Positions 32,132 through 64,000 of a stretch of DNA of 64,000 nucleotides are shown one piece after another. Position 1 is the first letter of the stretch. Every line of letters begins with the position of its first letter. A program made the translations under genes and the position numbers. The notes below the pieces were generated by a model that worked only from the letters and a program-made list of their open reading frames with translations, did not search any database and had not been told where the DNA came from. The stretch is from positions 12,914,001 to 12,978,000 of the forward strand of contig CM049308.1 in the NCBI GenBank assembly GCA_026874595.1, read 5' to 3'. The stretch is from Sipunculus nudus (lineage: Eukaryota > Annelida > Sipuncula > Golfingiida > Sipunculidae).

Positions 32132-32327
32132 TCAGTTTAAGCGACCCTACGGTCAACACCGCCTTAGCTGTATTCCTGACTTTTACGTTCCCCCCCCCCC
32201 CCCACACACACACATACACACCCGAACTTTTTATTGTCAGGGGTTGCCGACTCGCAGGTTCTCTCGTCAAACTCGAACTCAAGGCAGACGTTAAGACGAT
32301 GTTTAGATAGATAGAACTAGTATTTTG

Positions 32328-32391
32328 AGTCACTAGACAGACACGGTTGAGGTGGTCTGGGACCACCGCCCCGGCCTGTCTCTTTAGACTA
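32328..32391 (-). other. 3'-terminal RNA fold of P1
   Basis: Outer stem AGTC/GACT, next stem AGACA/TGTCT and an inner hairpin GGTGGTC-TGG-GACCACC (32351-32367) enclose the conserved CTCTTTA. The same architecture, with different stem bases, is seen at 35244-35310, 44262-44336 and 48983-49049. Confidence 0.7.
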
Positions 32392-32728
32392 TAATTTTGA
32401 TGTCGAAAATTGCCACACAAGCCAAGCCAAGGAGCCGCGAAAGCCACCAGCACGCACCCGCACCGGTGACCGTGAAAGCTACATCATCCACACCGACAAA
32501 GCCCCGAGCGGGCCACTCACCGCACGGATATCATCAGCAAAGCCGCTGCCCCCACGATCCCGGTCGCGAGCGACATCCCCGAGCAGAGTGCGCACCACAA
32601 CAGAGAGACCCCAACACAAGCAGGGAAACCCAGATCGCCGCCAGAACAACCTCTACCGCGAAGAGCCGGACTTCCTGTGACTTGGGTCGGGCAGGCTGTC
32701 TTGGCTTGGTCTTCAGCTGGTCCCCGAT

Positions 32729-32760
32729 CAGTGGGCCTAAAGTTGTCTGTCTGCCCACTG
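32729..32760. other. Constant-loop hairpin 1 of P1
   Basis: Stem CAGTGGGC/GCCCACTG encloses the loop CTAAAGTTGTCTGTCT. Copies are at 46458-46489 and 51107-51138; the last has one loop change. Confidence 0.8.
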
Positions 32761-32898
32761 TCAGGGATTCTTGGCTTGTCTTGCTAGTCTTGACTTGGGT
32801 TCCGGCTGTCGGGGTGGTCTTGTCTTCTCTTGGCTTGTCCTAGGGCTACCAGTCTTGACTTGTCTTGAGGCTTGGTCTTGGGTCTTGGTCTTGTGGCA

Positions 32899-32934
32899 GG
32901 CAGCGGACCTAAAGTTGTCTGTCTGTCCGCTGCC
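32899..32934. other. Constant-loop hairpin 2 of P1
   Basis: Stem GGCAGCGGAC/GTCCGCTGCC encloses the same 16-nt loop as hairpin 1 although the stem sequence differs. Copies are at 46629-46664 and 51277-51312. Confidence 0.8.
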
Positions 32935-33766
32935 AGGTCGATTAGTGATTGATTAGTCCTAAATAGGACTGTTGGGGGGGGGGGGTAGTCCTAAAAAGGA
33001 CTGTTGGGGGTCTTGTCTGGTCTGTCTGGAGCTGTCCCGGTGTAGGTCTGGGTAGTCGTCTTGGAAGTTGCTGTCAGTGGGCGGATGGGGTGTGCGCTCG
33101 TCTGGGTGCCCTCTATTCTTCCGCTGGTGGTGTGGGGGGGCTGCCGCAGTACTTGCGCGTCGGTGTCGGATGCTGCTGTTGGTGGTTGTCAGGGGTAGTA
33201 GTTGTCCTTTGTGGGGGTGGGGGGGCCGTAGATTTCTTTATAATTTTATAAGTATCACATGGGATTTTTTAAGAAAATACCTCATGATCATTTACCCTTA
33301 TATTGTCCTAAATGAGATATCTATATGAGATATCTTTATAGTTAGAAATCTAGCCGGCCGGTGGAGCTCTCAGTTTGTACTTTTATATTAAGTATCACAT
33401 AAATATTTATAAGAAATATTTACGATCATGTACTTTTATAGGAAATACTTATAAGAAGTATTTTTATATAAGCGCAGACTGAGAGAAAAGGGGGCGGGGG
33501 TAGTTGAGGCTAGTGGCGGCATCAGTTTCCATCCACTTGCTAGTGGCCGGCTTCAGTTTCCATGCCACTGGTCTGCCGGAGATGCTGTAAATTACTAATA
33601 AGATCTATAATTATACCTTATATATGAGCGTCGGATAACCAGATATTGCGTCGATATTGTGAAAAATACAAAAACAAAAGGGAGAAAAACCGGTAAAAAT
33701 CATAAAAAACGTGGGTTAGTGTGCATGAAAAAATGATGAGTGAGGTGGTGTATTTACATGAATTGT

Positions 33767-33806
<40 letters not shown>

Positions 33807-33944
33807 TTAAAAGTTAATGGTGTATAAAACAGCATGGTGCATTTTTTGTACATGGGTTTAGTATGGCTCTATTCTAATTTGGGGTGTATTAGTATTGGTT
33901 AGTGGATCGGTGTTGTGTCGGTGAGTATGTATTTTCCAGAGTTG

Positions 33945-34550
33945 TGTCTTGTTTTAATCTCCGGCAATAATAGTGTCCCGGTTTGGGCACTTTGCCTTCG
34001 ATTTGTGTTATTATTGTTCTTTAATAAAGTATTGTGTATTGCTGAGTATTAGCTGTTCTGTGTTCCTTGTAGTTTTTGCTTTTATTTTGTTTGGTTTTTA
34101 TTTTATGGAAAGGTAAAACGCGTCTCGTCCGAGCCGGCGAATTACTCATCCCGTATCAGGTGACGTTAGGTGTGTTGTTTAATTGAAGATGTTATGAATA
34201 AATCTCCGACAATAGTAGTGACCCGGTTTGGGCACTTTGTCTTTGATTTATGTCATTATTGTTCTTTATTAAAATATTGTGTATTACTGAGTGTTAGTTG
34301 TTCTATGTTCCTTGTAGTTTCTGCTTTTATTCTGTTTGGTTTTTATTTTTATTTTTGTGGGAAGGTAAAACGCGTCTCGACCGAGCCTGCGAATTACTCA
34401 TCCCATATTTGGTGATGTTTGGTATGTTGTTCAATTGAAGATGTAATGAATAAATCTCAGACAATAGTAGTGACCCGGTTTGGGCACTTTGTCTTTGATT
34501 CATGTTGTTGTGGGTTTTAATAAAGTTTTAGCTTAATATAAGGATGTTGT
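33945..34550. repeat. ~250-bp tandem repeats within P1
   Basis: Three units share ATAAATCTC, AATAGTAGTGACCCGGTTTG, GGGCACTTTG and AAAACGCGTCTCG. The P3 copy has an extra duplicated unit at about 59277-59490. Confidence 0.8.
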
Positions 34551-34895
34551 TTTGTTGTTTTTAAGGTGTTAGGGAGGTTGTATTTTTCTAGACTGGTAAG
34601 TGGATGTTTTTGGGCGGGGGCGGTTTGCGCTCTTTTATGTGCTCTCTAATTTTTGTGTTTGTACTGGGAGGGGGGGGGGGGACGAGTGTAGTGAGGTTTG
34701 TTTACTGTGAGAGTTGTGTTTTTTGTTCGTGTGTGGTTTTTCTTTGTTGTCATGTCGGGGCGAGTGCTTTATTTTATTTTGAGTGTGGGTTTTATTATCG
34801 TTTTGTTAGGAAATGGGTGGTTTTTGTGGTTTATTTTTATTGTTATATTGTTTGGGAGTCGGTTTGGTCGGGGGGCGGGGCTGATATGTTAATTA

Positions 34896-34950
34896 GGGGA
34901 TGCCAGCTGCAGGGGAGTACAGGTATTGTGTTCCTCTGCAGCTAGGATCC
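34896..34950 (-). other. u1 hairpin
   Basis: GGGGAT...GATCC flanks a stem GCTGCAGGGGA/TCCTCTGCAGC. It is the first of ten sense copies of a hairpin family (see also 43434, 43802, 48637, 59798, 60179, 60547, 61032, 63138 and 63506). Confidence 0.75.
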
Positions 34951-35208
34951 GATGATTAATTGATGGTCGGGGTGTTTTTTCTATTTTCCTATGCCTAATA
35001 GTTTTAAAGATATTTATTTATTTTCGTCAAAATTTCGTAGGGTTTTAGTATGGATAGAGTTTTTTGGGTTCCGTAAATTTCGAGTTTATATTATTATTTC
35101 AAGTATGTTTGTTTCGTTCCTAAACTTTGTACGGGCCGTAGTTTTGATGGAAAGTTTGTATGAAAAGATGGGGCGTATTCGAGGGTCGTGGGTCAGTTAG
35201 TGTAGGTC

Positions 35209-35223
35209 GCGGCCCCGGCCTAG
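35209..35223. repeat. Target-site duplication of B1, left copy
   Basis: GCGGCCCCGGCCTAG is repeated at 37057-37071. The empty site reads the same way at about 60112-60126. Confidence 0.88.
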
Positions 35224-35243
35224 ACTAGACTAGATCTTGTAAT

Positions 35244-35310
35244 TATAGTCATCAGACATCTCAGTTGAGATAAGCTGAGCTTGATCGCCCTGGATGTCTC
35301 TTTAGACTAG
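35244..35310 (-). other. 3'-terminal RNA fold of B1
   Basis: Outer stem TAGTC/GACTA and inner AGACA/TGTCT enclose a CTCAG/CTGAG-type hairpin and the conserved CTCTTTA. Next to it is the (TCTAG)n tail. Confidence 0.65.
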
Positions 35311-35692
35311 AAGTTCTTAATCCCTTTAAATAAAGGTTTCAAGTTTTCCAAGATCGAAATAAAGTTGAAATTTTGAAATCGAAAAATTTAAGATCGAAAA
35401 ATCGTTCCGTTCGCAGTGCTTTAGACGAGAATGCCACATGTCTGTATTAGTCGACCAGGGGGGATCCCAGCTGCAGCGGTAGGAAGTCTGTTTTCTATGG
35501 ATGTACAATAGAGTGGATCCTAGCTGCACTGGAATAAAATTTCGCTTTTCTTCGTTATTGATTTTTAGAGTTCGTTTGTTCCTGGTCAGCCAACCGTGAG
35601 ACACTTCAATATCGTTTTACAATCTTGCTCGGAGCTTTGTTTGCGCTTTGTTTATACTTCTGGAGCCGTGAGAACTTTCATTGTTTACTGTG

Positions 35693-36994
35693 TCAGGTTT
35701 CCTGAAGGCCGGATTCAGTCTTTTCTTCAACACTTGTTTCCGTTGTACTTTCTTCAGTTATTTGAGATTCTTCTGATGGATTTTCGGCCTCCATTTCTTC
35801 TGTTTCGTCTTCAGCTTCTGATTCTGAGGTTGCGTATGTTGCTTGCGGGATCTGTTCCACTACTTCATATATCTTTTCTTTTGTGTTATGCAGCTTTATG
35901 GGATCACGTTCAGTCCATGAGTCAAACCAATCTTTGTATAACGGTTTTAAATCTTCCATGTGGTAATCGAGGTCGTCTGGGTGGATTGGTGTGTCCATTA
36001 GAAATTGAGCTACATAGGCAATGTTCCGTGCTTGTGTTTGTCGTAGGTCTTCATCGTAATCATTATACAGTACTGCTGCAGCCACCATATATATGAGTTG
36101 AGTTCCAGTGAAGTGTAGAGTCTGTACTTGTGCGTCTGCAGTCGTCTTCGGTGTTTCCGCTGCTTTTGATGGTTCCGTCTGTATTATTGGTGTCTGGCTC
36201 GTTTCTTGAGGTTCCGTGGGTTGTGATATTGCTTGGCAAGGAGGTGATGTCTTTTGTTGTGCTAGTTGACGATATTTTTTGTAGAAAGGGCACCCTCTGT
36301 AGGAAGTGGCGTGGTCCCCTTGACAGTTTGCGCATGTTTTCTGTGTTTTGGTACATTGATTTGTTCGGTGTTCAGGTGCTCCACAACGGTAGCATCTAGG
36401 CTTGTTTTGACATTCTCGGCTGTGGTGTCCCCATCCTGAGCAGCGGCCACAGAATGGATGAGTAATGGTCAGGTATTCTTCGGTTTTGAATAACTTGTAA
36501 CCGGCTTTTAGTCCATGTTGCAATGCGGAATCAGCATCTTCTCTGCTTGTCATGAGGACCTTGACTTTGTGAATGGGCGACTTTGTAGCTGAGCTATATA
36601 GGCGTATCACATCCTTGATTGAGTAGGTTTCTTCTAGCAGTGACTTTAAATCTTGGGTGTCCGTAGATGGGGGAACGCCTTTCATCACCACAGGAAATTC
36701 TGTAAGTTTGGTTGGTTTTACTCTCTCTCCTGATTTCTTACGTCTATGTTTCACCGTTGTAATCCCAGTGACGGTTTTGAATTTTCCATAACTTTTCCAC
36801 TCCGCCAGGTTCTTTAGGCGAGATCCGTCTATTGCCTTGGTGGGGTGTATATATAAGCTGTCTCTTGTTTTGGTAGCTGTGTCCAGAGTTATATCTGGAA
36901 AGGCCGCTTTTAAACTCCTATACAGTTGTACCGGGTCATTGAGGATATCTGGTGGGATACCCGAGACCAGGTAACCGTCCTCAGGCGAGGTCAT
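35693..36994 (-). CDS. Gag-like ORF1 protein of B1 (three zinc knuckles)
   Basis: A 433-residue protein starts at ATG 36992-36994 (MTSPEDGYLVSGIP). The open frame extends further upstream into the target duplication, but that part has no support. An N-terminal region conserved with B2 and B3 (PDITLDTATKTRDSLYIHPT) is followed by a PRE_C2HC-like segment (FPVVMKGVPP...) and three knuckles: CGRCSGWGHHSREC and CYRCGAPEHRTNQC (CX2CX4HX4C), then CANCQGDHATSYRGC (CX2CX3HX6C). This trio is typical of Jockey-clade LINE Gag proteins, including the Drosophila telomeric Gags. The C-terminal part is acidic and rich in E, T and S. Expected role: binds element RNA and directs the particle to its target. The frame is intact. 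Confidence 0.85.
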   Translation of the reverse strand: MTSPEDGYLVSGIPPDILNDPVQLYRSLKAAFPDITLDTATKTRDSLYIHPTKAIDGSRLKNLAEWKSYGKFKTVTGITTVKHRRKKSGERVKPTKLTEFPVVMKGVPPSTDTQDLKSLLEETYSIKDVIRLYSSATKSPIHKVKVLMTSREDADSALQHGLKAGYKLFKTEEYLTITHPFCGRCSGWGHHSRECQNKPRCYRCGAPEHRTNQCTKTQKTCANCQGDHATSYRGCPFYKKYRQLAQQKTSPPCQAISQPTEPQETSQTPIIQTEPSKAAETPKTTADAQVQTLHFTGTQLIYMVAAAVLYNDYDEDLRQTQARNIAYVAQFLMDTPIHPDDLDYHMEDLKPLYKDWFDSWTERDPIKLHNTKEKIYEVVEQIPQATYATSESEAEDETEEMEAENPSEESQITEESTTETSVEEKTESGLQET

Positions 36995-37056
36995 GATAAT
37001 AGTTGTGCGAGCGCGCTGTTGACACGTCTTGTCTAAACGAACACTAATACACGACT

Positions 37057-37071
37057 GCGGCCCCGGCCTAG
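37057..37071. repeat. Target-site duplication of B1, right copy
   Basis: GCGGCCCCGGCCTAG, identical to 35209-35223. Confidence 0.88.
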
Positions 37072-37083: not shown

Positions 37084-37299
37084 CCATCCATAACCGTTAC
37101 ACCGCTCAGGCAATAACTAGGGTTTCTACGCCGCAGTTTTGCCTCTTCGGGTCCCCCTCATTCTGCACTGAGGTCGCCAGAACTGACACGCCAGCTAGCC
37201 AGCTAGGTCCGGCCCGCCCTCGCCAACCGTCAACCACCGAGGAATCCCCCAGGTGTTCCGGGAGCCTGAGCCTCGCAACCTGCCAGTAATGTCCGAGCG

Positions 37300-37536
37300 C
37301 TACCGGCCTGCCCCTGGACTATTCGCAGTCCCGTCATGAGCCTTGTCCCTTTCGACCAGGTACAGCTCTCGTTCGATCGGAGCCTTCTCGGGAGCCTTCT
37401 CGGGAGCCTTCTCTGGTGCTTTTGCCATCATGTCTTGAGCCTTGTCCCTGCTGGTCCTGACCGGGCCCCCGGTTATTATGACGTCTTGGAGCCTTGTCCC
37501 TGATCCTTTCGGGATCCCCGTAACTTTTTCCACCAA
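37300..37536 (-). other. Short conserved frame in the A1 3' region
   Basis: A 78-codon frame with an EKAP triplet repeat (from 12-bp repeats at about 37381-37415) is kept in both A1 and A2 with one or two changes. Because the two copies are very young, conservation is no evidence for coding. It may simply be part of the 3' untranslated region. Confidence 0.2.
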
Positions 37537-37727
37537 ACGGCTGGCTCTACAGGGCCAGGTTCCATACTGCCGGCAACAGGCTGGCCTACTCTTCTATCGA
37601 AAAACAGTATGGGGTCTTTTACGTGCCCGTCCCCTTCTGGACACGGGACCGCCATTTAACGTCCTCATCCGATGGACGGCCCGTGTTTGTCTTTTGCAGG
37701 CGGGCGCTGCGGTGCCCCGGAGCCTTT

Positions 37728-40517
37728 CTACCCTTCCCCCACTTTCTCTAGTGGGGTGATAATACTGGGTTTCCGTCTGCCACTGATCTTTTGCCAGTCG
37801 AGCCACATTTTGAGGTCTTTATAAAACTTCTCTTGCTTCACCTTTTCGACATAGCCTTTGCTCAACCTTAGTATGTGGTCGCTCACATACTCTATATCTG
37901 CCTTCTCGTGAAGCACAGATATCCGCGTGCGGGGCGGGAGTCTCAAGGCCGTCCTTAAGGCTCTGTTTTGAAGCCGTTGAAGTTTTTTAATATGGTGCTC
38001 TTTGGCGGTGATCAGGGCTATGCAGCCGTATGTCATAACCGGTCTGATCCAGGCTTTATAAAGGTATATCAAACTTTGGGTAGACATGCCTCCTGATCCT
38101 GCTTTTAGCACTCTTAAGCAGTTGAGTCTCGCTTTGACCCTCTGTTCGATATCCTCTATATGAGCCGCCCATGTGAGTCTCTTATCAACCGTCAGACCCA
38201 GAAATTTTATCTGGTCTGTGAATTGAATTGGTTCCCCGGCCAATTTCAGTTCTGGCGCTTTGCCGGCCTTACTGCCTTTCAGGTGCCTACCGAATTTGCA
38301 AGCCTGCGTTTTTGTCGCATTGACTCTTACTCGCCATTTGGCGCACCACTTTGTCACCTCGTCTAGACCGGCCTGTAACCTGGGTACTGCCCTCTTGCTA
38401 TGTGTCCATAGCGCAGTGTCGTCCGCAAATTGGCTCGTCGCCCCCGTGCGGACCCCTCCTTTCTCGGACAGGCTAGGCATGTCGTTGACGAATATGACAT
38501 AGAGCAGCGGGCTGAGAGCTGAGCCCTGCGGTGTGCCTGCGGCGGGTTCGATCTCATGCGACTTAGCGTCACCTACTCTGACCCATAGCTTCCTGTCACT
38601 TAGGAAGGACGAGAGGAGCCTCACAATGCGAGTCGGTAGTTTTGCCTGCGTTGCGATCTTATACCTTAGACCATCCCGCCATACTGCGTCGAAGGCTTTC
38701 TCGACGTCTAGGAATACACCTATAGTATCATTAGATCGCTGCAGGCATTGTCCCACCGACTGCGTCAACCTGAACAGTTGGTCATTTGTCGACCTGCCCT
38801 TACGGAACCCGCTCTGATTCGGGTTAAAGAATTTTGCTTCCTCCAAGTGACCACTGATCCTGCCAGCCAGTATTCGTTCCAGCACTTTGCCCAGAATTGG
38901 CAGTAGGCTGATGGGTCGGTAGCTTTTCGGCAGCGAGTGATCCTTTCCCGGCTTCGGGATCATGATCACGTTCGCTCTTTTCCATGCCCTTGGGAAGTAC
39001 CCCAGTTTCAGACACGCGTTGAACACAGAAGTGAGCGCTTCCAGCCCTTCCTCCGGTAGGTTAATCAGCACTTCCCTGGTGAGGCCGTCCTCCCCCGGGG
39101 CTTTTCTGCTTTTGAGTTTTTTCAGCTTCCTGCTGACTTCCGCTTTTGAGATCGCTCTCAGTAGCGGCTCGTCCTCTGCTGTCTGAGCGTAGCAGCTCTC
39201 TACCCTTGCCAGAGGCGAGTATAACTCGTTTGCACCTTGTCTTACGTGCCGATCAACCTCCTCCTGTGTTTGGTCGTCGAACTGGGGTCCCGTCGGGACC
39301 TTGTGTATGTTCCGGAGCGTCTCCGCGAACAAATTTGCCTTGTCCTTTTCTGTACTAGCCACCTTTCCCATCGGGCCTGTGAGGTCTGTAGTTCCGACCG
39401 ATGGTTTGTTCAGCGAGCCCGTGTATTGGCGGACCTGTCGCCAAAATTCGCCCACTGATATTCTGTGGTCCATACCGCTCGTGAACTTGTACCATTCCGC
39501 CTTTTTCTGGGCTTTTATTGCATTTTTCACCTCCCGACTAATAGCATTGTATTGGGATTTTAACTCCTCTGTTCGGAGTTGGATCTGAAGCCTTCTGATC
39601 CTCCTTCTTTCCCTTACAAGTGCTTTAATCGTTGGGGTGAATGACCACCAGTTACGGTTTTTCCTTTCCACCATCGGACACGCTCGGTCCAGGCAATCTC
39701 GCATTTCAGAGGTCAGTTTGTCGACTAGGGTGTCGATTCCTTCTGGGGTCGATGGTTCAGCGATACCTCGGAGCCTGTCTGCCAATTCATTTTTAAAGAG
39801 CCTCCAGTTTGCCTTTCTCCAAGGCCTCACCATTTTGGGTGGCTTTCTGTTCGCTCTCCAATCGAGCTCTAAATGAATTGGCATGTGATCGCTGCCTATA
39901 TCTTCCCCTACATGAAATTTACTGACCAGTCCTACCTCGGGCGATACGATTGCCAGATCGAGTATGTTCGTTCCACCGGTCGTGGGGTTCACCCTGGTCG
40001 GGCTCCCATCGTTCATTATCACCATACCGTACCGATCTATGCAATCCATCAGTGCTTTCCCGTTCAGATTAGAGGATCTGCTGCCATACGAGGTGTGTGG
40101 GGCATTTAGGTCCCCTAACACCACGTAGTGGCTGCTGTTCCTCTTAATCTTGTCAAAGAGTTGTGCCCTGGGCCGTGACTGTGGCGGGTTGTAATATACT
40201 ATTACATCGATTGCCGGGTCGCCGCTGTGGACAGGTTCAACTCTAACCGTTAGAGCTTCTATGTCCATCCTTCCTAGCCAGTTTGTTTGGCGGTATACTA
40301 GGTTCTCTTTGATCAAGAGAGCCACTCCGCCTCCCATATTACCGTCTGGCCGTCCCCTGTGTAGCAGGTTATAGCCGGTGAAGGAAACGTTTCTGGTCAG
40401 CTTAGACTCGCTGATAGCCATGATATCTACGGAATGCCTGTGGATATAGTTGAGTATCTCTAACCTCCTTCCATACAGGCCATTCACGTTTGCGTGGCAT
40501 AGTTTGAGCTTAACCAT
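37728..40517 (-). CDS. A1 ORF2: APE endonuclease and reverse transcriptase
   Basis: A 929-residue polyprotein starts at ATG 40515-40517, which overlaps the ORF1 stop as ATGGTTAA. Upstream codons in the same frame overlap ORF1 and have no separate support. The endonuclease has HANVNGL, SESKL, GDLNAPH (135-141) and SDH (209-211). The reverse transcriptase has SYRPISLLP (from 532), FLDVEKAFDAVW, GTPQGSALSPLLY (from 661) and the catalytic FADD (697-700). The set fits the Jockey group. In Bombyx SART1 an overlapping stop/start couples ORF2 translation to ORF1 by termination-reinitiation, and the arrangement here suggests the same. It would nick target DNA and copy element RNA in the nucleus. Only two residue differences from A2 were noticed. 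Confidence 0.93.
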   Translation of the reverse strand: MVKLKLCHANVNGLYGRRLEILNYIHRHSVDIMAISESKLTRNVSFTGYNLLHRGRPDGNMGGGVALLIKENLVYRQTNWLGRMDIEALTVRVEPVHSGDPAIDVIVYYNPPQSRPRAQLFDKIKRNSSHYVVLGDLNAPHTSYGSRSSNLNGKALMDCIDRYGMVIMNDGSPTRVNPTTGGTNILDLAIVSPEVGLVSKFHVGEDIGSDHMPIHLELDWRANRKPPKMVRPWRKANWRLFKNELADRLRGIAEPSTPEGIDTLVDKLTSEMRDCLDRACPMVERKNRNWWSFTPTIKALVRERRRIRRLQIQLRTEELKSQYNAISREVKNAIKAQKKAEWYKFTSGMDHRISVGEFWRQVRQYTGSLNKPSVGTTDLTGPMGKVASTEKDKANLFAETLRNIHKVPTGPQFDDQTQEEVDRHVRQGANELYSPLARVESCYAQTAEDEPLLRAISKAEVSRKLKKLKSRKAPGEDGLTREVLINLPEEGLEALTSVFNACLKLGYFPRAWKRANVIMIPKPGKDHSLPKSYRPISLLPILGKVLERILAGRISGHLEEAKFFNPNQSGFRKGRSTNDQLFRLTQSVGQCLQRSNDTIGVFLDVEKAFDAVWRDGLRYKIATQAKLPTRIVRLLSSFLSDRKLWVRVGDAKSHEIEPAAGTPQGSALSPLLYVIFVNDMPSLSEKGGVRTGATSQFADDTALWTHSKRAVPRLQAGLDEVTKWCAKWRVRVNATKTQACKFGRHLKGSKAGKAPELKLAGEPIQFTDQIKFLGLTVDKRLTWAAHIEDIEQRVKARLNCLRVLKAGSGGMSTQSLIYLYKAWIRPVMTYGCIALITAKEHHIKKLQRLQNRALRTALRLPPRTRISVLHEKADIEYVSDHILRLSKGYVEKVKQEKFYKDLKMWLDWQKISGRRKPSIITPLEKVGEG

Positions 40518-42540: not shown

Positions 42541-42546
42541 TCTTTT

Positions 42547-43020
42547 ATTCAGTGCCCTCTCACTGAATTGTCTAGATATACTCCCGCTCGGGCAGTATGT
42601 TGGTTTCCCGACCTTTCTCGATATATTCCTTTTGGGAATATATCGGGCTTTTCCTCTCGCCCTTTTTGACCTCGCTCTTCTGTCGGGTCTTATTATTTTA
42701 TTCCCGTTCGGGCAATAAAATAATTTTGGATTCTCTCTCCGCCTCCTGCCTCTATTTTCGCCCCGATTGCTCGTACCTGTTCAGGCTACGATTTCTCTTT
42801 TCAGTAGATTGGTTGTTTCCAGAGCGTGGAAGACAACTTATCTTCAGATGATCCGTGAGCCAACGAGCCGAGAGCGGGCTCTATTCAGCAGTTTTTACCC
42901 AGAGCCGGGCTTAAAACTGTGAGCTTTGTGGACGGTCGGGCCGAGAGCTAGCCCTTGAGCCGAGAGCAGGCTCAATGAATGAGTTAATTAACTGTACCGA
43001 GAGCGGGTATCTGTTAATTA
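42547..43020 (-). other. Hairpin cluster in the A1 leader
   Basis: At least eight stem-loops lie between ORF1 and the 5' end. Near ORF1 they include TTCAGTG-CCCTCT-CACTGAA, ATACT...AGTAT, CGATATATTCC...GGAATATATCG and ATTATTTTATT...AATAAAATAAT. Further upstream are GAGCC-GAGAGC-GGGCTC (42865-42881), a TTTTNACCC stem with loop AGAGCC (42889-42918), GGGC-CGAGAGCTA-GCCC (42938-42954), TTGAGCC-GAGAGCA-GGCTCAA (42955-42975) and a long stem with loop GAGAGC (42984-43020). The loop is nearly constant while the stems differ. Confidence 0.75.
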
Positions 43021-43175
43021 GTTCTTTGTAGGTTTCACCTACCCCGGAGCCAACAAGAAAATTCGAAAAAGTGATACTTTACCTGATTCCCCTAAAGTAA
43101 CCTTAACTTATAGAACTAAGCCCTAGCTAAGATGCACTTGTTTGGGGATGGTAGTACTGAAAAGCTGAAAAAGAT

Positions 43176-43200
43176 AGACTAGTCCTAAAGAGGACTGTTG
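43176..43200. other. AGTCCTAAAGAGGACT palindrome in the A1 leader
   Basis: TAGTCCTAAAGAGGACTGTT is shared with the P units (about 32956, 32989, 46686 and 46712), although A and P are otherwise unrelated. Confidence 0.7.
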
Positions 43201-43380
43201 TGGGTGGCTCCTATCACCAGTCTCGCTAATCACTAATGTGAATAGCTTGACTGGGAAGTTAGGCGCCAGTGAGTCTGCTGTGTCTCCGCGTCTCTGTCCA
43301 CTTGACTAATTAGGCGGTGGTGGTCTAATTAGAGTTGCTCCCAGGCACGTCCGTTCTCCACGGCTGCTGGGAATGCAATG

Positions 43381-43392
43381 TTGCCATGGCTT
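43381..43392. repeat. Target-site duplication of A1, right copy
   Basis: TTGCCATGGCTT, identical to 37072-37083. The backbone resumes after it with GACCTGTTGG. Confidence 0.88.
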
Positions 43393-44226: not shown

Positions 44227-44238
44227 GGTGAAATGGAT
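44227..44238. repeat. Target-site duplication of B2, left copy
   Basis: GGTGAAATGGAT is repeated at 46020-46031. Confidence 0.85.
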
Positions 44239-44261
44239 GAACTGAACTGAAACATGTATTT

Positions 44262-44336
44262 TACTTCCTCAGACACACATGGTTGAGCCGGACTAAGTCC
44301 GACGTCCCAGTGGTCTCTTTAGAAGAATTTTGAATT
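44262..44336 (-). other. 3'-terminal RNA fold of B2
   Basis: The outer stem is CTTC/GAAG where P and B1 have AGTC/GACT. It keeps AGAC/GTCT, the CTCTTTA strand and an inner hairpin CGGACTAAGTCCG. The paired changes support a real RNA structure. Confidence 0.7.
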
Positions 44337-44466
44337 TAGTCCAAAAAATCCCGTGATGTTATTCAGGGAAAATCGTTGGTCACGTTCGCTGAAGTCTGAC
44401 AAATAGCCGTGGTGGACTCTATGGTGTTTTGGTATCTTCCTCGGAGTAAATGCTAATTTTCAAGGT

Positions 44467-50763: not shown

Positions 50764-50777
50764 CGGCCCCGGCCTAG
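50764..50777. repeat. Target-site duplication of B3, right copy
   Basis: CGGCCCCGGCCTAG, matching 48951-48964. It is followed by TGCCATGGCTTGACCTG and then the P3 tail. Confidence 0.85.
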
Positions 50778-52484: not shown

Positions 52485-52496
52485 TCTCGTCCGAGC
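52485..52496. repeat. Target-site duplication of A2, left copy
   Basis: TCTCGTCCGAGC is repeated at 58807-58818. The empty site is present in P1 at about 34125-34136. Confidence 0.88.
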
Positions 52497-53139
52497 CATC
52501 CATAACCGTTACACCGCTCAGGCAATAACTAGGGTTTCTACGCCGCAGTTTTGCCTCTTCGGGTCCCCCTCATTCTGCACTGAGGTCGCCAGAACTGACA
52601 CGCCAGCTAGCCAGCTAGGTCCGGCCCGCCCTCGCCAACCGTCAACCACCGAGGAATCCCCCAGGTGTTCCGGGAGCCTGAGCCTCGCAACCTGCCAGTA
52701 ATGTCCGAGCGCTACCGGCCTGCCCCTGGACTATTCGCAGTCCCGTCATGAGCCTTGTCCCTTTCGACCAGGTACAGCTCTCGTTCGATCGGAGCCTTCT
52801 CGGGAGCCTTCTCGGGAGCCTTCTCTGGTGCTTTTGCCATCATGTCTTGAGCCTTGTCCCTGCTGGTCCTGACCGGACCCCCGGTTATTTTGACGTCTTG
52901 GAGCCTTGTCCCTGATCCTTTCGGGATCCCCGTAACTTTTTCCACCAAACGGCTGGCTCTACAGGGCCAGGTTCCATACTGCCGGCAACAGGCTGGCCTA
53001 CTCTTCTATCGAAAAACAGTATGGGGTCTTTTACGTGCCCGTCCCCTTCTGGACACGGGACCGCCATTTAACGTCCTCATCCGATGGACGGCCCGTGTTT
53101 GTCTTTTGCAGGCGGGCGCTGCGGTGCCCCGGAGCCTTT

Positions 53140-55929: not shown

Positions 55930-57952
55930 GACGTCCCCCCACCGACTTCTTAAAACCGTTGCTACCGGCCTTTTTGGATTTGGGCTGCCTATAGCTGCCC
56001 TTATCCTTTTTGGATGATGCGTTACTGGCTGGTACCGATCGAGCTCTCGGCTCCTCACGGTCCTTTTCCGTTCCTCTGTCCGACAGCGCCGTCCACGACA
56101 ATTCTAGGCCTAGGTGCCTAGTAGCCGACTTCTTCACCACTGTTACGGCCCGTTCTCTGGGCTCATTGACTTTCGCCAGCTTCAGCGTTTCTGTGATCAC
56201 TTCACAGAGAAACTTTATCAGTTTCTCTGGGTTGATCTCTAGCATAGCCTGGCTTTCAGCCACGGCTTGCTCCTCCGCCGGAGCTACCCCCTTTTCCGTT
56301 ACATTGCGGTTTTTGGCCGCGGCCCGCCCTCCGGCAAGCCTGGTGGACGTGCTACCGCTAGCCACGACCTGCCCCCTTTCGGGAGCGGGAGCCTTCTGGG
56401 TCCTTACAGCCTCTGAGGCCGTGGGTCCCCGGGAGCCTCTGGTGATTTTGGCGTAGGTCACGCCAGTCTGGTGGGCTTTGCCTTTCCTGCCTTCCGCGCT
56501 CTTGCTGGTCGGCTTCCCTTCAGTGCCGTGTTTAGCCGTTGTCGGCCTCTGCCGGGCACCTTTGAAGGCTGTACAGCCCCTGTACATCGCCCTGTGGTCG
56601 CCCCCGCAGTTTGCACATTTTGGCTTGCTCTTGTCGGCTGCCCTTCGACAATCTTTGGCATAGTGGCCTGCCTCGCCACAGTGCCTGCACCTGCCAGCCT
56701 TAGTGCATACTTTGGCCGTGTGCCCGAACTGGTAGCAGTTCAGGCACTGGATCGGCTCTACGGCCTTCCGGAAAGCCTCGCAGCGTATACGCTCGCTCCC
56801 GTACCTGAACCCGTGCTCGAGTGCCCTCGTAGCGCTCTCGCTCTGCTGAAAGTGCACGAGCACCTTCCACACCGGCTTTTTTCCGTGCCTGAGCCGCACG
56901 ACCTCTTTGGCTTTTAAGCCCTGTTCATTTAACTCCGCCATGATCTCCTCTGTTGAGATATGCGGGCTCATTCCTCTGGCCACCACCGATGTTTGTTGGG
57001 TGCCCTCTGGTTTGGCTTGCTTGTTGCCCCGTGCAAGCTCCACCACTACCTTGGGCCCCGCCTTGATCAGTGGGCGCCAGTCGGGCCTGGCTTCCCTTGC
57101 TGTTTCGGGGAGCGTGACCACCATTACTCCCCTGTCGAACTTTGTCTTACAGGCGGAGGTGCCCGTGCACTCCGTCACCAGCCTGTTCATTTTTCTACTG
57201 TTCTGCCTGAGGGCTGCCGGTAAGCCCCTGACCCAGTACCGAGCCAAGCCCTCTTTCTCCTGGTCGGCCACCTCACCTTCCGGCTGGCCGTTCTCCGTGC
57301 TCCCTGTCCGTACAGGCGAGCTTCGGGTCGGAGTTCCGTCCGCTGCTTGATTAACCCGGGTCCCCGGTTTGGTGGGCGACCCGCTATCACCTGAGCGGAC
57401 TGGATTAGAGGGCGTCGATCTCTCGATCGAGCTCGGGGACAGTGTCCTGAGAACCGTCGGCCACTCAGGCGATCCCACGTCTATGATTGGAGACCCCGAC
57501 CGTTCGGGCGTCCCCGCCTTGTCCGGCCCCGGGACCTCCGGGGTGACCACTCCCGGGGTCTGCGGGGTTACCACTACCCTGTATGAATCGTTGCCCCTCT
57601 CCGGGGAGTCATCGAATAGCTCGAAACTGGCGTCCCCTGTCGGGGTGGCCGGTACCGAGCTCGGGGAACCCAGCGTAGAGCTTGGCGAGTTCGATGCCCC
57701 TTGCATCGCTCCCTCGCCTGCTGGGCTCTGTGAGGCCGAACCCTTGTTCGCGCCTCGACCCTCCATCTCGGTCCGCCCGTCCGCCGCCTGCGCTCTACCG
57801 ATGCTCTCCGTGATGAGCCCCGTAATCATCTGGAGGGCGTCAGGCCCGTGCCTTGCTGCCTGCTGCAGCCCACCTGTGATCTGGGTGAGACCCGGGATCA
57901 CTTCTCTTTCCCTCTGAGAAAGCACCAACAGCCTGGTAAGTGCTTCCGCCAT
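55922..57952 (-). CDS. A2 ORF1: Gag-like protein (three zinc knuckles)
   Basis: 676 residues, ATG 57950-57952. Identical to the A1 ORF1 except for about seven substitutions, for example V/G after AQAAD, K/E in PEGKVAD, V/I in MLEVNPEK and D/N in KVDEPRE. The three knuckles are unchanged. Several of the changes are conservative. Functionally equivalent to the A1 protein. Confidence 0.9.
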   Translation of the reverse strand: MAEALTRLLVLSQREREVIPGLTQITGGLQQAARHGPDALQMITGLITESIGRAQAADGRTEMEGRGANKGSASQSPAGEGAMQGASNSPSSTLGSPSSVPATPTGDASFELFDDSPERGNDSYRVVVTPQTPGVVTPEVPGPDKAGTPERSGSPIIDVGSPEWPTVLRTLSPSSIERSTPSNPVRSGDSGSPTKPGTRVNQAADGTPTRSSPVRTGSTENGQPEGEVADQEKEGLARYWVRGLPAALRQNSRKMNRLVTECTGTSACKTKFDRGVMVVTLPETAREARPDWRPLIKAGPKVVVELARGNKQAKPEGTQQTSVVARGMSPHISTEEIMAELNEQGLKAKEVVRLRHGKKPVWKVLVHFQQSESATRALEHGFRYGSERIRCEAFRKAVEPIQCLNCYQFGHTAKVCTKAGRCRHCGEAGHYAKDCRRAADKSKPKCANCGGDHRAMYRGCTAFKGARQRPTTAKHGTEGKPTSKSAEGRKGKAHQTGVTYAKITRGSRGPTASEAVRTQKAPAPERGQVVASGSTSTRLAGGRAAAKNRNVTEKGVAPAEEQAVAESQAMLEINPEKLIKFLCEVITETLKLAKVNEPRERAVTVVKKSATRHLGLELSWTALSDRGTEKDREEPRARSVPASNASSKKDKGSYRQPKSKKAGSNGFKKSVGGRHG

Positions 57953-57958
57953 TCTTTT

Positions 57959-58433
57959 ATTCAGTGCCCTCTCACTGAATTGTCTAGATATACTCCCGCT
58001 CGGGCAGTATTTTGGTTTCCCGACCTTTCTCGATATATTCCTTTTGGGAATATATCGGGCTTTTCCTCTCGCCCTTTTTGACCTCGCTCCTCTGTCGGGT
58101 CTTATTATTTTATTCCCGTTCGGGCAATAAAATACTTTTGGATTCTCTCTCCGCCTCCTGCCTCTATTTTCGCCCCGATTGCTCGTACCTGTTCAGGCTA
58201 CGATTTCTCTTTTCAGTAGATAGGTTGTTTCCAGAGCGTGGAAGACAACTTATCTTCAGATGATCCGTGAGCCAGCGAGCCGAGAGCGGGCTCTATTCAG
58301 CAGTTTTTTACCCAGAGCCGGGCTTAAAACTGTGAGCTTTGTGGACGGTCGGGCCGAGAGCTAGCCCTTGAGCCGAGAGCAGGCTCAATGAATGAGTTAA
58401 TTAACTGTACCGAGAGCGGGTATCTGTTAATTA
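57959..58433 (-). other. Hairpin cluster in the A2 leader
   Basis: The same series of stem-loops as in A1. GAGAGC-loop hairpins run from 58277 to 58433 and AT-rich ones with CCCGNTCGGG tips lie nearer ORF1. Confidence 0.75.
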
Positions 58434-58806
58434 GTTCTTTGTAGGTTTCACCTACCCCGGAGCCAACAAGAAAATTCGAAAAAGTGATACTTTACCTGAT
58501 TCCCCTAAAGTAACCTTAACTTATAGAACTAAGCCCTAGCTAAGATGCACTTGTTTGGGGATGGCAGTACTGAAAAGCTGAAAAGCTGAAAAAGATAGAC
58601 TAGTCCTAAAGAGGACTGTTGTGGGTGGCTCCTATCACCAGACTCGCTAATCACTAATGTGAATAGCTTGACTGGGAAGTTAGGCGCCAGTGAGTCTGCT
58701 GTGTCTCCGCGTCTCTGTCCACTTGACTAATTAGGCGGTGGTGGTCTAATTAGAGCTGCTCCCAGGCACGTCCGTTCTCCACGGCTGCTGGGACCGCAAT
58801 GCAATG

Positions 58807-58818
58807 TCTCGTCCGAGC
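58807..58818. repeat. Target-site duplication of A2, right copy
   Basis: TCTCGTCCGAGC, identical to 52485-52496. P3 resumes with CGGCGAATTACTCATC. Confidence 0.88.
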
Positions 58819-60128
58819 CGGCGAATTACTCATCCCATATCAGGTGACTTTTAGGTGTGTTGTTTAATTGAAGATGTTATGAATAAATCTCCGACAATAG
58901 TAGTGACCCGGTTTGGGCACTTTGTCTTTGATTTATGTCATTATTGTTCTTTATTAAAATATTGTGTATTCCTGAGTGTTAGTTGTTCTATGTTCCTTGT
59001 AGTTTTTGCTTTTATTCTGTTTGGTTTTTATTTTTATTTTTGTGGGAAGGTAAAACGCGTCTCGACCGAGCCTGCGAATTACTCATCCCATATTTGGTGA
59101 TGTTTGGTATGTTGTTCAATTGAAGATGTAATGAATAAATCTCAGACAATAGTAGTGACCCGGTTTGGGCACTTTGTCTTTGATTCATGTTGTTGTGGGT
59201 TTTAATAAAGTTTTAGCTTAATATAAGGATGTTGTTTTGTTGTTTTTTTTTAAGGTGTTAGGGAGGTTGTATTTTCTCGACCGAGCCTGCGAATTACTCA
59301 TCCCATATTTGGTGATGTTTGGTATGTTGTTCAATTGAAGATGTAATGAATAAATCTCAGACAATAGTAGTGACCCGGTTTGGGCACTTTGTCTTTGATT
59401 CATGTTGTTGTGGGTTTTAATAAAGTTTTAGCTTAATATAAGGATGTTGTTTTGTTGTTTTTTTAAGGTGTTAGGGAGGTTGTATTTTTCTAGACTGGTA
59501 AGTGGATGTTTTTGGGCGGGGGCGGTTTTCGCTCTTTTATGTGCTCTCTAATTTTTGTGTTTGTACTGGGAGGGGGGGGGGGGACGAGTGTAGTGAGGTT
59601 TGTTTACTATGAGAGTTGTGTTTTTTGTTCGTGTGTGGTTTTTCTTTGTTGTCATGTCGGGGCGAGTGCTTTATTTTATTTTGAGTGTGGGTTTTATTAT
59701 CGTTTTGTTAGGAAATGGGTGGTTTTTGTGGTTTATTTTTATTGTTATATTGTTTGGGAGTCGGTTTGGTCGGGGGGCGGGGCTGATATGTTAATTAGGG
59801 GATGCCAGCTGCAGGGGAGTACCGGTATTGTGTTCCTCTGCAGCTAGGATCCGATGATTAATTGATGGTCGGGGTGTTTTTTCTATTTTCCTATGCCTAA
59901 TAGTTTTAAAGATATTTATTTATTTTCGTCAAAATTTCGTAGGGTTTTAGTATGGATAGAGTTTTTTGGGTTCCGTAAATTTCGAGTTTCTATCATTATT
60001 TTAAGTATGTTTGTTTCGTTCCTAAACTTTGTACGGGCCGTAGTTTTGATGAAAAGTTTTGTATGAAAGGATGGGGCGTATTCGAGGGTCGTGGGTCAAT
60101 TAATGTAGGTCGCGGCCCCGGCCTAGTG

Positions 60129-60980
60129 CCATGGCTTGACCTGTTGGTTGATTATTGTGTTTTGTAGTATGTAAAACAGGGGATGCCAGCTGCAGCGGGG
60201 TAAGTTGTGTACCCGCCGCAGCTAGGATCCGATGTTTGATTGATGATCTGGGTGTTTTTTCTAATTTTCTGGGCCTGATATTTCTTATGATTTTTATTAT
60301 TTTTCGACGTAATTTCGTGAAACTCGGGAATGGATAAAGTTTAGTGTGTCCTGTTAATTTGGAGTTTCTATTACTATTTTAAGTGCGTAAATTTTGTTCC
60401 TGAAATTTGTACGGGCCGATGTTCAGTAACTAATTTGTGTGGAGGGATGGGATGTCTTAGGGGTCAATTAATGTAGGTTGCGGCCCCTACCTAGTGCCTT
60501 GGCCTGACCTGTTAATTGATGTTTAAGGCGTGTTGTTTACCAAACAGGGGATGCCGGCTGCAGCGGGATAAGCATTGTTCCCGCCGTAGCTAGGATCCGA
60601 TGCTTAGTTGATGGTCGGGCCGGTTTTTACTGATTTTGGCATTAATTTTTTTCCAAAATTTCTATTTTTATTTGCCGAAACTTCTTAATGTTTAAGTCTA
60701 GGGCGGGTTCTGTGGGTTTTGAGGGAATTGGGGTTGTATTTTATTTTCTAGTTTGTTAATTTGGTTGCTAAAGTTGGTACGGGGCGTTGTTTCGCTTATA
60801 AATTTTGGAGGGTCGGGGAGTGATTTTTCTTTAGTTTTGAACCTTATGTAAACTCGTTAATATTTGGTTTTTAATTTAGAAATTTGGGGGAGTGGAAGAT
60901 TTTAGAAAGTTCTTTAGGTTTTCGCTATAATTTTGGGCTTTGGGGAATAATAGGTTGGTTAATTTTGGGGGTGAAATGGA
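60129..60980 (-). repeat. Backbone blocks u2 and u3 (second copy)
   Basis: u2 (60138-60505, hairpin 60179-60230) and u3 (60506-60980, hairpin 60547-60598) follow u1 without interruption, so this is the intact u1-u2-u3 order. u3 ends GGGGGTGAAATGGAT, where C is joined. Confidence 0.75.
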
Positions 60981-61031
60981 TACGGGCCTTAGTTGTGCTT
61001 AATTGATTGTGGAGACCTTGTATGCAAATTA

Positions 61032-61080
61032 GGGGATGCCAGCTGCAGGGGTCTAATTTACCTCTGCAGATTCGATCCCC
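61032..61080 (-). other. 3' hairpin of C
   Basis: GGGGAT/ATCCCC outer pairing and CTGCAGGGG/CCTCTGCAG inner stem around TCTAATTTA. It is the same position and shape as the u-block hairpins but with different stem and loop bases. Confidence 0.75.
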
Positions 61081-61276
61081 CTGTTGCTCGAAGGTCGGGG
61101 TGTGTTGAATGGAGGTCAGGTCGGTTTACAGGTGCGGGGTCGCGACCCATATTGCTGACCTCTTGTTTTTGTGAGTGTTGGGTTCTGTGTTGTGTGTATC
61201 CGTTGAGAAGGCTTGTTGGTGTAGTTTTTTGGATGTTTAATATATAGTTTATTTGTTTTATTAATTATTTACTATG

Positions 61277-63091
61277 TTATTGTTGATTTTGTCCTTCTAG
61301 AATGTAATCTAGAGGGGACTTTATTTTTATATTGTTTTTTGGTTGTGTGTAATCGTGTTGATATTTAAGTAATTTTATTGTGTCCAGTTCTTTTATTCTT
61401 TCATAGGAGTTTGTTGCTTGTTCTTTTAAATATTCAGTGATTTTGGGGGTGTTTGTTTTTTCTCTTAATTCGTCTGTTTTTCTTAGTTTGTGTGTTCTGA
61501 GAATGGCTCTCAGTGCTTTATTTTGTGTGATTTCTAATTTATTTAACATTGTTTTTCCTGCGCCTAGGAACGCAATGGACCCATATGTGCCTATAGGGCG
61601 GATCCATTGTTTGTACAGGTAGCTGGCCGTTTCTGTTTTCGGTCCGTCATGTTTGTAGCACAGAGCTTTTAGAATATTTACTCTGTTCCACATTCTTTGG
61701 ATTATATTTTCGATGTGTGGTTTCCAGGTGGCTCTTGAGTCGAATGTTACACCTAGAAATTTTGCCTCTTTGTGTTCTTTGAGGTCCTCTCCTAATAATT
61801 CTAGGGGCTCGAAATATTTGGGTTTTTTAGCTTTTGTGAATAAAACAGTTTGTGTTTTTGAGGGGTTTAAGCGGACTCTCCAGTCGTCGCACCAATCTTC
61901 TATTCTTTGTAATTGGGCCTGTACTTTATTTCTGGAGTATTTTGGGTTCGTGTCGGTCGACCAGATGGCGATGTCGTCAGCGTATTGTGATACGCATAGT
62001 TGTTGTCCTGATTTGGGGATGTCATTTACATACATTATGTATAGTAGAGGGCTGAGAACAGAGCCCTGGGGGGTCCCTGCTTTAAGAGTTATTTCCTGTG
62101 ATAGGGTCCCTTTAACTTTTACTCTAAGTGTCCTGTTGTGTAAAAAGGATGAAATTAGTCTGATTATTTTATTTGGTAGATGGGATTTCATTATTTTGTA
62201 TCTGATTCCGTCGGACCATACGGAGTCAAAAGCCTTTTCCACATCGAGGAATGTGGCCAGGGTATATTGACTCCGTTTAAAACCTGTGGTTATTGATTGG
62301 CTAAGTCGGAGGATGTGGTCGGTGGTGGATCTGCCCGCTCTGAACCCGGACTGATCTTGGTTAAAAAATGGGCCCCCCAATTCGGGAGGTCGGTTGTCCA
62401 AAAACGTGGTTATCCTATTTTTTAGGATTTTTTCAAATAATTTTCCTATGCAGGGGAGTAAGCTGATAGGTCTGAAATTTGTTGGTTTGTCTTGTGTTTT
62501 GCCGGGTTTTGGAATCATTGTGACTACGGCTTTTTTCCAGTCGTCTGGGAAGTATCCCCAGTTAATGCAGAGTGTGTATAATTTCGCTATTCTTTCTAAA
62601 CAGGTGTCGGGGAGTTTTTTTAATATTACGTAGTTGATGTTGTCTGCGCCTGGGGCTGATTTTCCCTTGGCTGTTTTAAGTGCGCGTTTTATTTCAATTA
62701 GCGCAACGGGCCTGACTGCGGGGTTATTATCATCTGTTTCATTTATTTGTGTTTGTAATGGTTTGAATAAAATCGGGTTGTTTTCTATAGTTTCAGTAAC
62801 TGTATCATAGAGTTCTTCATTAAAATCTTCATCTTCTGGTGTTGTGTGTATTTTTTCCAGGGTGTTCGCGAATAAATCTGCTTTGCTTTGTGGGGTTTCG
62901 GCTACGGAGCCGTCGGGTTTTAACAGTGGTTGGGATTGCCCTGTGCTGGGATTTGTTCTTGTGTTTGAATATTGTTTGAATTTGTTCCAAAATTGTTTTG
63001 TGTTTGTTTTATCATCTAAGCTATTTATGTAGTCTGTCCATTGTGTGCGTTTTTGTTCTAGGATAGCTTTTTGTGTTAGTTTATTTATTCT
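61277..63091 (-). pseudogene. C ORF2 fragment: reverse transcriptase and C-terminal region
   Basis: The frame is open without stops for about 604 codons up to the truncation at 63091; the internal ATG at 62516-62518 is not the true start. It contains the linker KADLFANTLEKIHTTPEDED, SAPGADNINYV, NFRPISLLPCIGK, DVEKAFDSVW, GTPQGSVLSPLLY and the catalytic YADD, then a Jockey-type C-terminal region. The endonuclease and any gag are missing. The protein is clearly different from A ORF2 although from the same group. Because its 3' hairpin matches those of the u blocks, relatives of C are candidates for the enzyme that built the backbone. Confidence 0.88.
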
Positions 63092-63930
63092 GGCTTGACC
63101 TGTTGGTTGATTATTGTGTTTTGTAGTATGTAAAACAGGGGATGCCAGCTGCAGCGGGGTAAGTTGTGTACCCGCCGCAGCTAGGATCCGATGTTTGATT
63201 GATGGTCTGGGTGTTTTTTCTAATTTTCTGGGCCTGATATTTCTTATGATTTTTATTATTTTTCGACGTAATTTCGTGAAACTCGGGAATGGATAAAGTT
63301 TAGTGTGTCCTGTTAATTTGGAGTTTCTATTACTATTTTAAGTGCGTTAATTTTGTTCCTGAAATTTGTACGGGCCGATGTTCAGTAACTAATTTGTGTG
63401 TAGGGATGGGATGTCTTAGGGGTCAATTAATGTAGGTTGCGGCCCCTACCTAGTGCCTTGGCCTGACCTGTTAATTGATGCTTAATGGGTGTTGTATACC
63501 AAACAGGGGATGCCAGCTGCAGCGGGATAAGCATTGTTCCCGCCGCAGCTAGGATCCGATGCTTAGTTGATGGTCGGGCCGGTTTTTACTGATTTTGGCA
63601 TAAATTTTTTTCCAAAATTTCTATTTTTATTTGCCGAAACTTCTTAATGTTTAAGTCTAGGGCGGGTTCTGTGGGTTTTGAGGGAATTGGGGTTGTATTT
63701 TATTTTCTAGTTTGTTAATTTGGTTGCTAAAGTTGGTACGGGGCGTTGTTTCGTTTATAAATTTTGGAGGGCCGGGGAGTGATTTTTCTTTGGTTTTGAC
63801 CCTTATGTAACCTCGTTAAAATTTGGTTTTTAATTTAGAAATTTGGGGGAGTGGAAGATTTTAGAAAGTTCTTTAGGTTTTCGCTATAATTTTGGGCTTT
63901 GGGGAATAATAGGTTGGTTAATTTTGGGGG
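63092..63930 (-). repeat. Backbone blocks u2 and u3 (third copy)
   Basis: u2 (about 63097-63464, hairpin 63138-63189) and u3 (63465-63930, hairpin 63506-63557) are joined on the left to truncated C and on the right to P4. The u3 hairpin has GCCGCAGC where the other copies have GCCGTAGC, restoring a pair. Confidence 0.75.
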
Positions 63931-64000
63931 TAGATAGATAGAACTAGTATTTTGAGTCACTAGACAGACACGGTTGAGGTGGTCTGGGACCACCGCCCCG
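63931..64000 (-). mobile_element. P4: start of a further P unit (cut by the window edge)
   Basis: TAGATAGATAGAACTAG and the 3'-terminal fold (GGTGGTCTGGGACCACC) are present. The rest lies beyond the window, so the array continues to the right. Confidence 0.85.

Follow-up and report, generated by a model that had tools for sequence, protein, structure and literature searches.

The window analysed here is a stretch of 64,000 nucleotides of the Sipunculus nudus genome, corresponding to chromosome C3:12914001-12978000 and lying in the interior (12.91-12.98 Mb) of a 97.9-Mb chromosome. From position 32304 to its right edge, the window is filled by an array of long interspersed nuclear elements (LINEs), in which X and A are gag-pol LINEs and C1-C4 are gag-only elements (C1-C17 are also chromosome labels, always written with the word chromosome below). 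The array is interstitial, runs one way, is built of nested LINE insertions and is not telomeric. It was very probably built by X, a 9.16-kb APE-endonuclease retrotransposon without long terminal repeats (non-LTR) that lands in its own 3' untranslated region (UTR), and the whole is best read as a Zepp-like self-targeting LINE with HeT-A-like gag-only partners. The assembly searched comprises 1.43 Gb in 153 contigs, 17 of which are chromosome-sized (chromosomes C1-C17, 61-111 Mb).

Beyond the window, chromosome C3:12978001-13178000 was also read and was tiled first with parts of the window and then with full X. In several copies there, the blocks labelled P and B in a first-pass annotation of the window are followed by a reverse transcriptase (RT) block and then by about 3.3 kb more, and together they form a single LINE, X. 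The reading of P plus B as an independent noncoding element, with D as a separate RT element, was rejected; P, B, D and E form one unit. The reference X is 9,162 bp long (chromosome C3:12977934-12987095), with frames of 593 aa (gag) and 969 aa (endonuclease-RT, EN-RT), counted stop to stop, and a 3' UTR of about 4.07 kb. The P, B and u blocks, which the annotation had taken for separate noncoding elements, all belong to this roughly 4-kb 3' end. Its coordinates and its other structural claims held: the modules from 32304 to 64000 lie on the minus strand with their 3' ends to the left, the sole exception being an inverted piece of about 90 bp (50965-51059), and gag-only units (C1, C2, C3) with uninterrupted frames stand beside gag-pol units (A1, A2) with open ones.

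Most X segments are 97-99.6% identical to the reference, with segments at 94.1% and 89.9% in X#6. Both frames are full length in X#5 and X#8, and the gag frame of X#7 is shorter (570 aa). Within the window, 3' parts of X and a single 5'-truncated copy (X#3) are present. By tiling, X, C1-C3 and A account for 98.2% of chromosome C3:12946304-13178000. This region includes a 93,312-bp tandem duplication (about 12987138-13173740, L028-L047; 99.95% identity, 10 mismatches, 7 gap openings), which is either real or an assembly effect. Since X pol and A pol are only 40% identical over 614 aligned positions, X and A are different families; both polymerases match LINE-1 and R2 chains in a comparison with the PDB. 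The parts of the array within the window, with target-site duplications (TSDs), are as follows.

32303-32400, minus strand: stem-loop and tail of X#1 (model search, consensus fold)
32304-35223, minus strand: X#1, 3' UTR part, X 1-2924, the former P1 (full-X tiling, 98.6%)
35210-35223, plus strand: landing site S1, CGGCCCCGGCCTAG, left copy at C1 (X about 2917-2937)
35226-37066, minus strand: C1, gag-only LINE in S1 of X#1 (TSD GCCCCGGCCTAG, 12 bp; gag of 433 aa)
37086-43379, minus strand: A1, gag-pol LINE with frames of 756 and 987 aa, adjoining S1 (TSD GTTGCCATGGCTT, 13 bp; EN, RT, zinc knuckle)
43382-44238, minus strand: X#1 continued after C1 and A1, X 2925-3773, the former B1 (tiling, junction reading)
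44227-44238, plus strand: landing site S2, GGTGAAATGGAT, left copy at C2 (X about 3760-3783)
44239-46018, minus strand: C2, gag-only LINE at S2 between X#1 and X#2 (TSD GGTGAAATGGAT, 12 bp)
46031-48964, minus strand: X#2, X about 1-2924, the former P2, at S2 of X#1 (TSD TGAAATGGATA, 11 bp, far copy beyond the window)
48965-50766, minus strand: C3, gag-only LINE in S1 of X#2 (TSD CGGCCCCGGCCTAG, 14 bp)
50796-52497, minus strand: X#3, X 1-170 and 374-1836, at S1 of X#2 (TSD TGGCTTGACCTGT, 13 bp)
50965-51059, plus strand: inverted X 3865-3771 piece in place of X 171-373 of X#3 (tiling)
52498-58800, minus strand: A2, gag-pol LINE inside X#3, both frames open (TSD GTCTCGTCCGAGCC, 14 bp)
58806-63091, minus strand: X#3 continued, X 1823-5883, with a small internal repeat, 5'-truncated within pol (tiling; RT domain)
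63091-63931, minus strand: X#2 continued, X 2930-3764, the former B3 (tiling)
63932-64000, minus strand: 3' end of the full-length X#5, running on to chromosome C3:12987095 (TSD TTTTGGGGGT, 10 bp)
35222-35318, 44239-44333, 46032-46129, 48958-49058, 50794-50891 and 63930-64000 (cut): further stem-loops and tails (model search)

The elements are nested in a definite order. X#1 is the host of C1 and A1 and, at its S2, of C2 and X#2; X#2 in turn carries C3 and X#3 at its S1, and X#3 carries A2. X#5-#9 then stand in series at S2 of X#2, and the same target remnant, GTGATATGGATA, stands before each of X#6-#9. After this stack, X#2 picks up again at X 3771 and runs to X 8074, its 5'-truncated end, which is followed by GAAATGGATA, a duplicate of the target of X#2 in X#1. 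For the duplications, element flanks were compared with 300 random flanks per row in 22 rows, two of them each combining a pair of A copies; the rows do not cover X#11-#13, the reversed A within X#6 or, taken singly, the two copies of A in X#7. Duplications of at least 10 bp were present in 21 of 22 rows, that is, in 19 of 20 single insertions, and were matched by at most 6 of the 300 random flanks. The printed length of 24 for X#7 and X#8 includes tail letters, and about 14 of these are target. As the first-pass annotation had noted, not all additions occurred at ends; the insertions are internal.

The two landing sites together make up about 44 bp of the 9,162-bp X, and the S2 sequence reads GTGA(A/T)ATGGATACGG. 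Counted without the second copy of the 93-kb duplication, 15 insertions of X or C into X (10 X, 5 C) had their junctions read, and 15/15 are oriented as the host X is. S2 took eight of them (C2, X#2, X#5-#9 and X#11) and S1 three (C1, C3 and X#3), while C1' sits beside a rebuilt S2 and C4, X#12 and X#13 lie elsewhere (X 3323, 5163 and 2547). The sites are also reused at other loci, S1 on chromosome C15 (L008) and S2 on chromosome C14 (L006) and, within chromosome C3, at 13.236 and 13.251 Mb (L004 and L007, both with the same flank). The element tails consist of TCTA, GTCTA or similar repeats and not of oligo-A, and a target GATA or TAGA often abuts the tail. The inverted piece in X#3 (50965-51059) starts at S2 and is perhaps a repair scar from a fragment cut there.

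C1, C2 and C3 are 1.78-1.84 kb long, with 5' UTRs of 72-85 nt, 3' UTRs of 225-467 nt and uninterrupted gag frames of 433, 488 and 498 aa, respectively, from the first Met; none of the three has an RT. Their gags are 40-47% alike mutually over about 250-290 residues. The C gags are only 26-33% alike to the X or A gag, mainly around the zinc knuckles, and against the X gag the figure is 30-31%, around the knuckles only. Because this likeness to X is low and centred on the knuckles, the C elements are not X with pol deleted. Between C1 and a second C1 copy there are 20 synonymous and 6 nonsynonymous changes, giving a nonsynonymous-to-synonymous rate ratio (dN/dS) of 0.08 for this one pair. C4 is a 5'-truncated, gag-like insert of 555 bp (L037:7487-8041) that also has the common 3' stem-loop, with a tail of CGAAT repeats. 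On chromosome C17 (44017042-44025708), five near-identical C2 copies stand head to tail at a spacing of about 1.785 kb.

The 3' ends of X, C1, C2, C3 and C4 align and fold as one stem-loop, which is followed by a tail of 4- or 5-nt repeats. In the consensus fold of these five families, both partners have changed in 12 of 19 pairs, in one family or more, and the single-sequence fold of X is strong (z -4.5). A search with the stem-loop model covered 292 kb, and five of its matches are the source sequences of the model or copies of them. All 31 of the 31 matches at E<0.01 fall at X or C 3' ends, in the orientation of those elements; within the 292 kb, none at this threshold lies in window 1-32302 and none at A. 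Of three weaker matches, one is a cut-off end, and the other two lie at C1' copies but on the opposite strand. Because the stem-loop is common to both and carries compensatory changes, X probably moves C in trans. The RT of X is the most likely agent, since the C elements carry its stem-loop and land in X co-oriented, three of five at S1 or S2.

Several smaller features lie in the 3' UTR of X. At window 34901-63522, it contains repeated units with an imperfect hairpin around TGCCAGCTGCAG, which is also found at the 3' end of the RT block; at no more than 1 mismatch, this sequence has 15 matches in the window against 0.17 expected. Internal runs of T, 35 (33771-33805) and 46 (47502-47547) long, vary in length between copies.

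Element A has both frames in 8/8 copies longer than 6 kb. Counted without the second copy of the 93-kb duplication, nine of its 11 insertions are in the array orientation and two are reversed, so that outside the window A does not keep to one strand. A pol additionally matches the TRAS1 endonuclease (E 0.0014, PDB comparison). No relatives of A pol in viral contigs were confirmed, in a search from which records near this genome were perhaps absent. Genome-wide, there are 65 A 3' ends, and for 33 of them a listed X-type end is at most 25 kb distant. A itself also occurs in head-to-tail runs: ten A 3' ends at chromosome C14:19171789-19222576 share one orientation at a spacing of mostly 6.32-6.35 kb.

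In the left flank, short tandem arrays lie just beside the LINE array (window 29081-30466 and 16433-17440; units of about 180 bp and 126/277 bp), a frame with a weak L1 ORF1-type match lies at window 8033-8737, and at window 1107-4886 there is an L1-like element with a 947-aa EN-RT frame parted by a stop from a 311-aa frame. An Rfam search of window 30001-64000 at E up to 1 gave two matches, both below gathering scores and neither within the array.

A search for X 3' ends with up to three mismatches gave 113 matches, 100 of which are listed (58 exact), some being copies from the 93-kb duplication; the distribution of X-type ends given here and below holds among the matches listed. Many non-exact ends start with GATCTAG and not GAACTAG, and these are termed X-type by the end sequence. 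X-type ends occur on all 17 chromosomes, exact ones on 13, with variant ends only on chromosomes C9, C11 and C12. In total, 65 of the 100 fall in nine clusters of at least two, on 8/17 chromosomes, and 64 of these 65 are co-oriented within their cluster. Large interstitial one-way clusters are found on chromosomes C3, C14, C5, C17 and C15; chromosome C15 has two multi-copy clusters, and chromosomes C14 and C17 have extra solo copies. Variant ends form further one-way clusters at chromosome C15:3629013-3664326 (4) and chromosome C2:25086609-25108059 (4). All multi-copy clusters are at least 3.6 Mb from a chromosome end, and one solo end lies at chromosome C1:92 kb. On chromosome C3, X-type ends run on to 13.265 Mb. 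A search with the C2 gag gave at least 85 matches, with 84 of 1,434 candidates scored. Of these C-type gags, 35/85 have a listed X-type end no more than 25 kb away, where 0.17 would be expected by area, and 32 of the 35 are concordant; outside the array on chromosome C3, the proportion is 28/78.

The ends of the chromosomes carry a different repeat. There are 69 TTAGGG array starts, 68 of them on chromosomes C1-C17, all within 1.1 Mb of an end and 65 within 0.5 Mb; 58 of the 68 face outward and 10 do not. They cover 24/34 ends on 15 chromosomes, and none is listed on chromosomes C1 or C7. On chromosome C3, the starts are 84.6 and 106.6 kb from the left end and 13.6 kb from the right end. In the first 3 kb of contigs C1-C19 (three masked), no contig opens with a repeat run, and a few CCCTAA occur in C5 and C15. 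A partial Telomerase_RBD match (32.1 bits, cut-off 25) marks one exon at chromosome C13:41.12 Mb.

Based on the anatomy, duplications, nesting, truncations, site reuse, orientation and shared stem-loop presented above, the mechanism of array growth may be outlined as follows. The X endonuclease would nick the plus strand (window orientation) at S1 or S2, and the 3'-OH at the nick would prime on the UCUA-type tail of X. A staggered second cut would then give the duplication of about 10-14 bp. The landing site is rebuilt by this duplication, and later copies therefore stack head to tail at one point; they face one way because the site is asymmetric. The pile would thus grow with a single polarity, and unequal exchange may add to it. 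The C elements probably borrow the X enzyme through the stem-loop, and A, a separate gag-pol LINE, also gathers in the array with duplications of its own. X and its partners may still be active.

Certain observations weigh against self-targeting by X. Folded singly, C1-C3 give weak structures (z -1.3 to -2.0). The X#9 duplication is 6 bp, a length reached by 42/300 random flanks, and X#5-#9 are not fully independent choices because they are stacked at one site. L002, L003 and L005 sit at other targets, and 35 of the 100 listed X-type ends are solo. Part of the array size is owed to the 93-kb tandem duplication, and the right end lies beyond the DNA read (to 13178000), within which X#11-#13 remain unclosed.

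Among the alternatives, the clusters may serve as centromeric or pericentromeric retroelement islands, as with Zepp in Coccomyxa or G2/Jockey-3 in Drosophila, a function that would be added to the insertion mechanism and not replace it. The large one-way clusters inside five chromosomes, the X-type ends on every chromosome (variants only on three) and the precedents in the accessible parts of PMC3446292 and PMC6516634 (all papers cited here and below are drawn on in such parts) are consistent with this. It is nevertheless unlikely: nine chromosomes have no multi-copy cluster, chromosome C15 has two, chromosomes C14 and C17 carry extra solo copies, and more than a third of the listed ends stand alone. 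A strict reading of one cluster per chromosome was rejected at the threshold used (8/17 chromosomes, 100 of 113 matches listed). An extension of this idea, which we regard as a long shot, is that X, together with its gag-only partners, would amount to a landmark of the chromosome that builds itself, in which the regenerating landing pad would found and enlarge one-way arrays serving as (peri)centromeric islands on many or all chromosomes and the partner gags would help bring RNA-protein particles to the array.

It is very improbable that the array arose mostly by duplication or unequal exchange, with a few founder insertions amplified head to tail and their orientation kept thereby. The 93,312-bp duplication, the A-A runs at about 6.32 kb on chromosome C14 and the five C2 copies on chromosome C17 are of the kind expected, but X copies within one unit are truncated at different points, vary in the type of tail and in the cargo nested in them, and each show a duplication of their own, and C1, C2 and C3 are different families, yet all co-oriented. 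Finally, an array of the HeT-A/TART/TAHRE telomere type, made by end additions without target duplication and with 3' ends towards the centromere, has virtually no chance of being correct: it would fit the one-way order, the gag-only beside gag-pol elements and the long 3' UTR of X, but the array begins 12.9 Mb inside the near end of chromosome C3, TTAGGG starts lie near both ends of that chromosome, a telomerase-domain exon is present, the insertions have target duplications, and 2/11 A insertions are reversed. The first-pass annotation had placed the array at or near a chromosome end to the right, whereas 84.7 Mb of chromosome separate the last X end listed from the far end; of the kinds of finding that it had named as contrary to a telomere, a long right flank, interstitial copies and some reversed A elements were found. 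Its HeT-A/TART analogy survives for the self-organised one-way array, the gag-only partners and the long 3' UTR (that of X), and fails for the telomeric position. It had correctly reported no visible telomeric simple repeat (TTAGGGTTAGGG is absent from the window), and its alternative, directional insertions into a satellite, was right about directional insertion into a repeat, which is the LINE itself and not a satellite.

Self-targeting by X remains the preferred reading. It explains at the level of sequence how a LINE bearing its own target, which each duplication restores, can assemble head-to-tail copies of one orientation outside telomeres, and it makes ideas on how Zepp-like clusters and retroelement islands arise testable. 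It also appears that protein-coding gag-only LINEs borrow the RT of another LINE via a conserved 3' stem-loop, in a HeT-A-like manner with no telomere role. A one-way LINE array taken alone is no evidence of a telomere. No title or abstract opening on animal self-targeting LINE arrays with gag-only partners turned up in the literature searched, which did not extend to subscription papers. HAL1 elements are ORF1-only L1 derivatives of mammals; the C elements resemble them as LINE-like elements with the first frame only, but differ in that their gags, with their knuckle-only likeness to X, do not mark them as X minus pol.

The system can be compared with several others. Zepp and ZeppL of green algae form LINE clusters of nested elements, mostly inside chromosomes; Coccomyxa Zepp is reported to have strictly one cluster per chromosome, and ZeppL is placed among L1 (PMC3446292, PMC8226300). 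The chromosome C3 array is likewise a localised nested LINE cluster. Unlike Coccomyxa Zepp, X has multi-copy clusters on only 8/17 chromosomes (nine in all, among matches listed), and unlike Zepp/ZeppL as described, it has gag-only partners with a common 3' stem-loop. G2/Jockey-3 islands at Drosophila centromeres consist of non-LTR elements (PMC6516634); X elements are similarly concentrated in interstitial islands on several chromosomes, but in contrast to G2/Jockey-3 as described, X self-targets a UTR site, and a centromere role here is a possibility.

TRAS/SART and other site-specific APE LINEs insert, guided by their endonuclease, at a preferred sequence in one orientation (PMC5537684). 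X does the same, presumably also guided by its endonuclease, but its target lies in its own 3' UTR or other DNA and not in a telomere repeat, and solo copies occur elsewhere. In the eel, UnaL2 and UnaSINE1, a stringent pair of a LINE and a short interspersed element (SINE), have a common 3' stem-loop and then a short tail repeat (PMC5135761). The same pairing of autonomous and non-autonomous elements by a common 3' stem-loop and short tail repeat is seen here, with the difference that the partners in the X system encode a gag protein. At Drosophila telomeres, HeT-A, TART and TAHRE form one-way arrays of gag-only and gag-pol elements with a very long 3' UTR and oligo-A (PMC5537684). The X array shares the one-way order, the gag-only elements beside gag-pol and the very long 3' UTR, here that of X. 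It differs in being interstitial, with target duplications and with repeat tails in place of oligo-A; telomerase has not been replaced (TTAGGG ends, telomerase exon), and the 3' UTRs of the gag-only elements are short. By the criteria compared, the X array is a member of neither the Zepp nor the HeT-A class.

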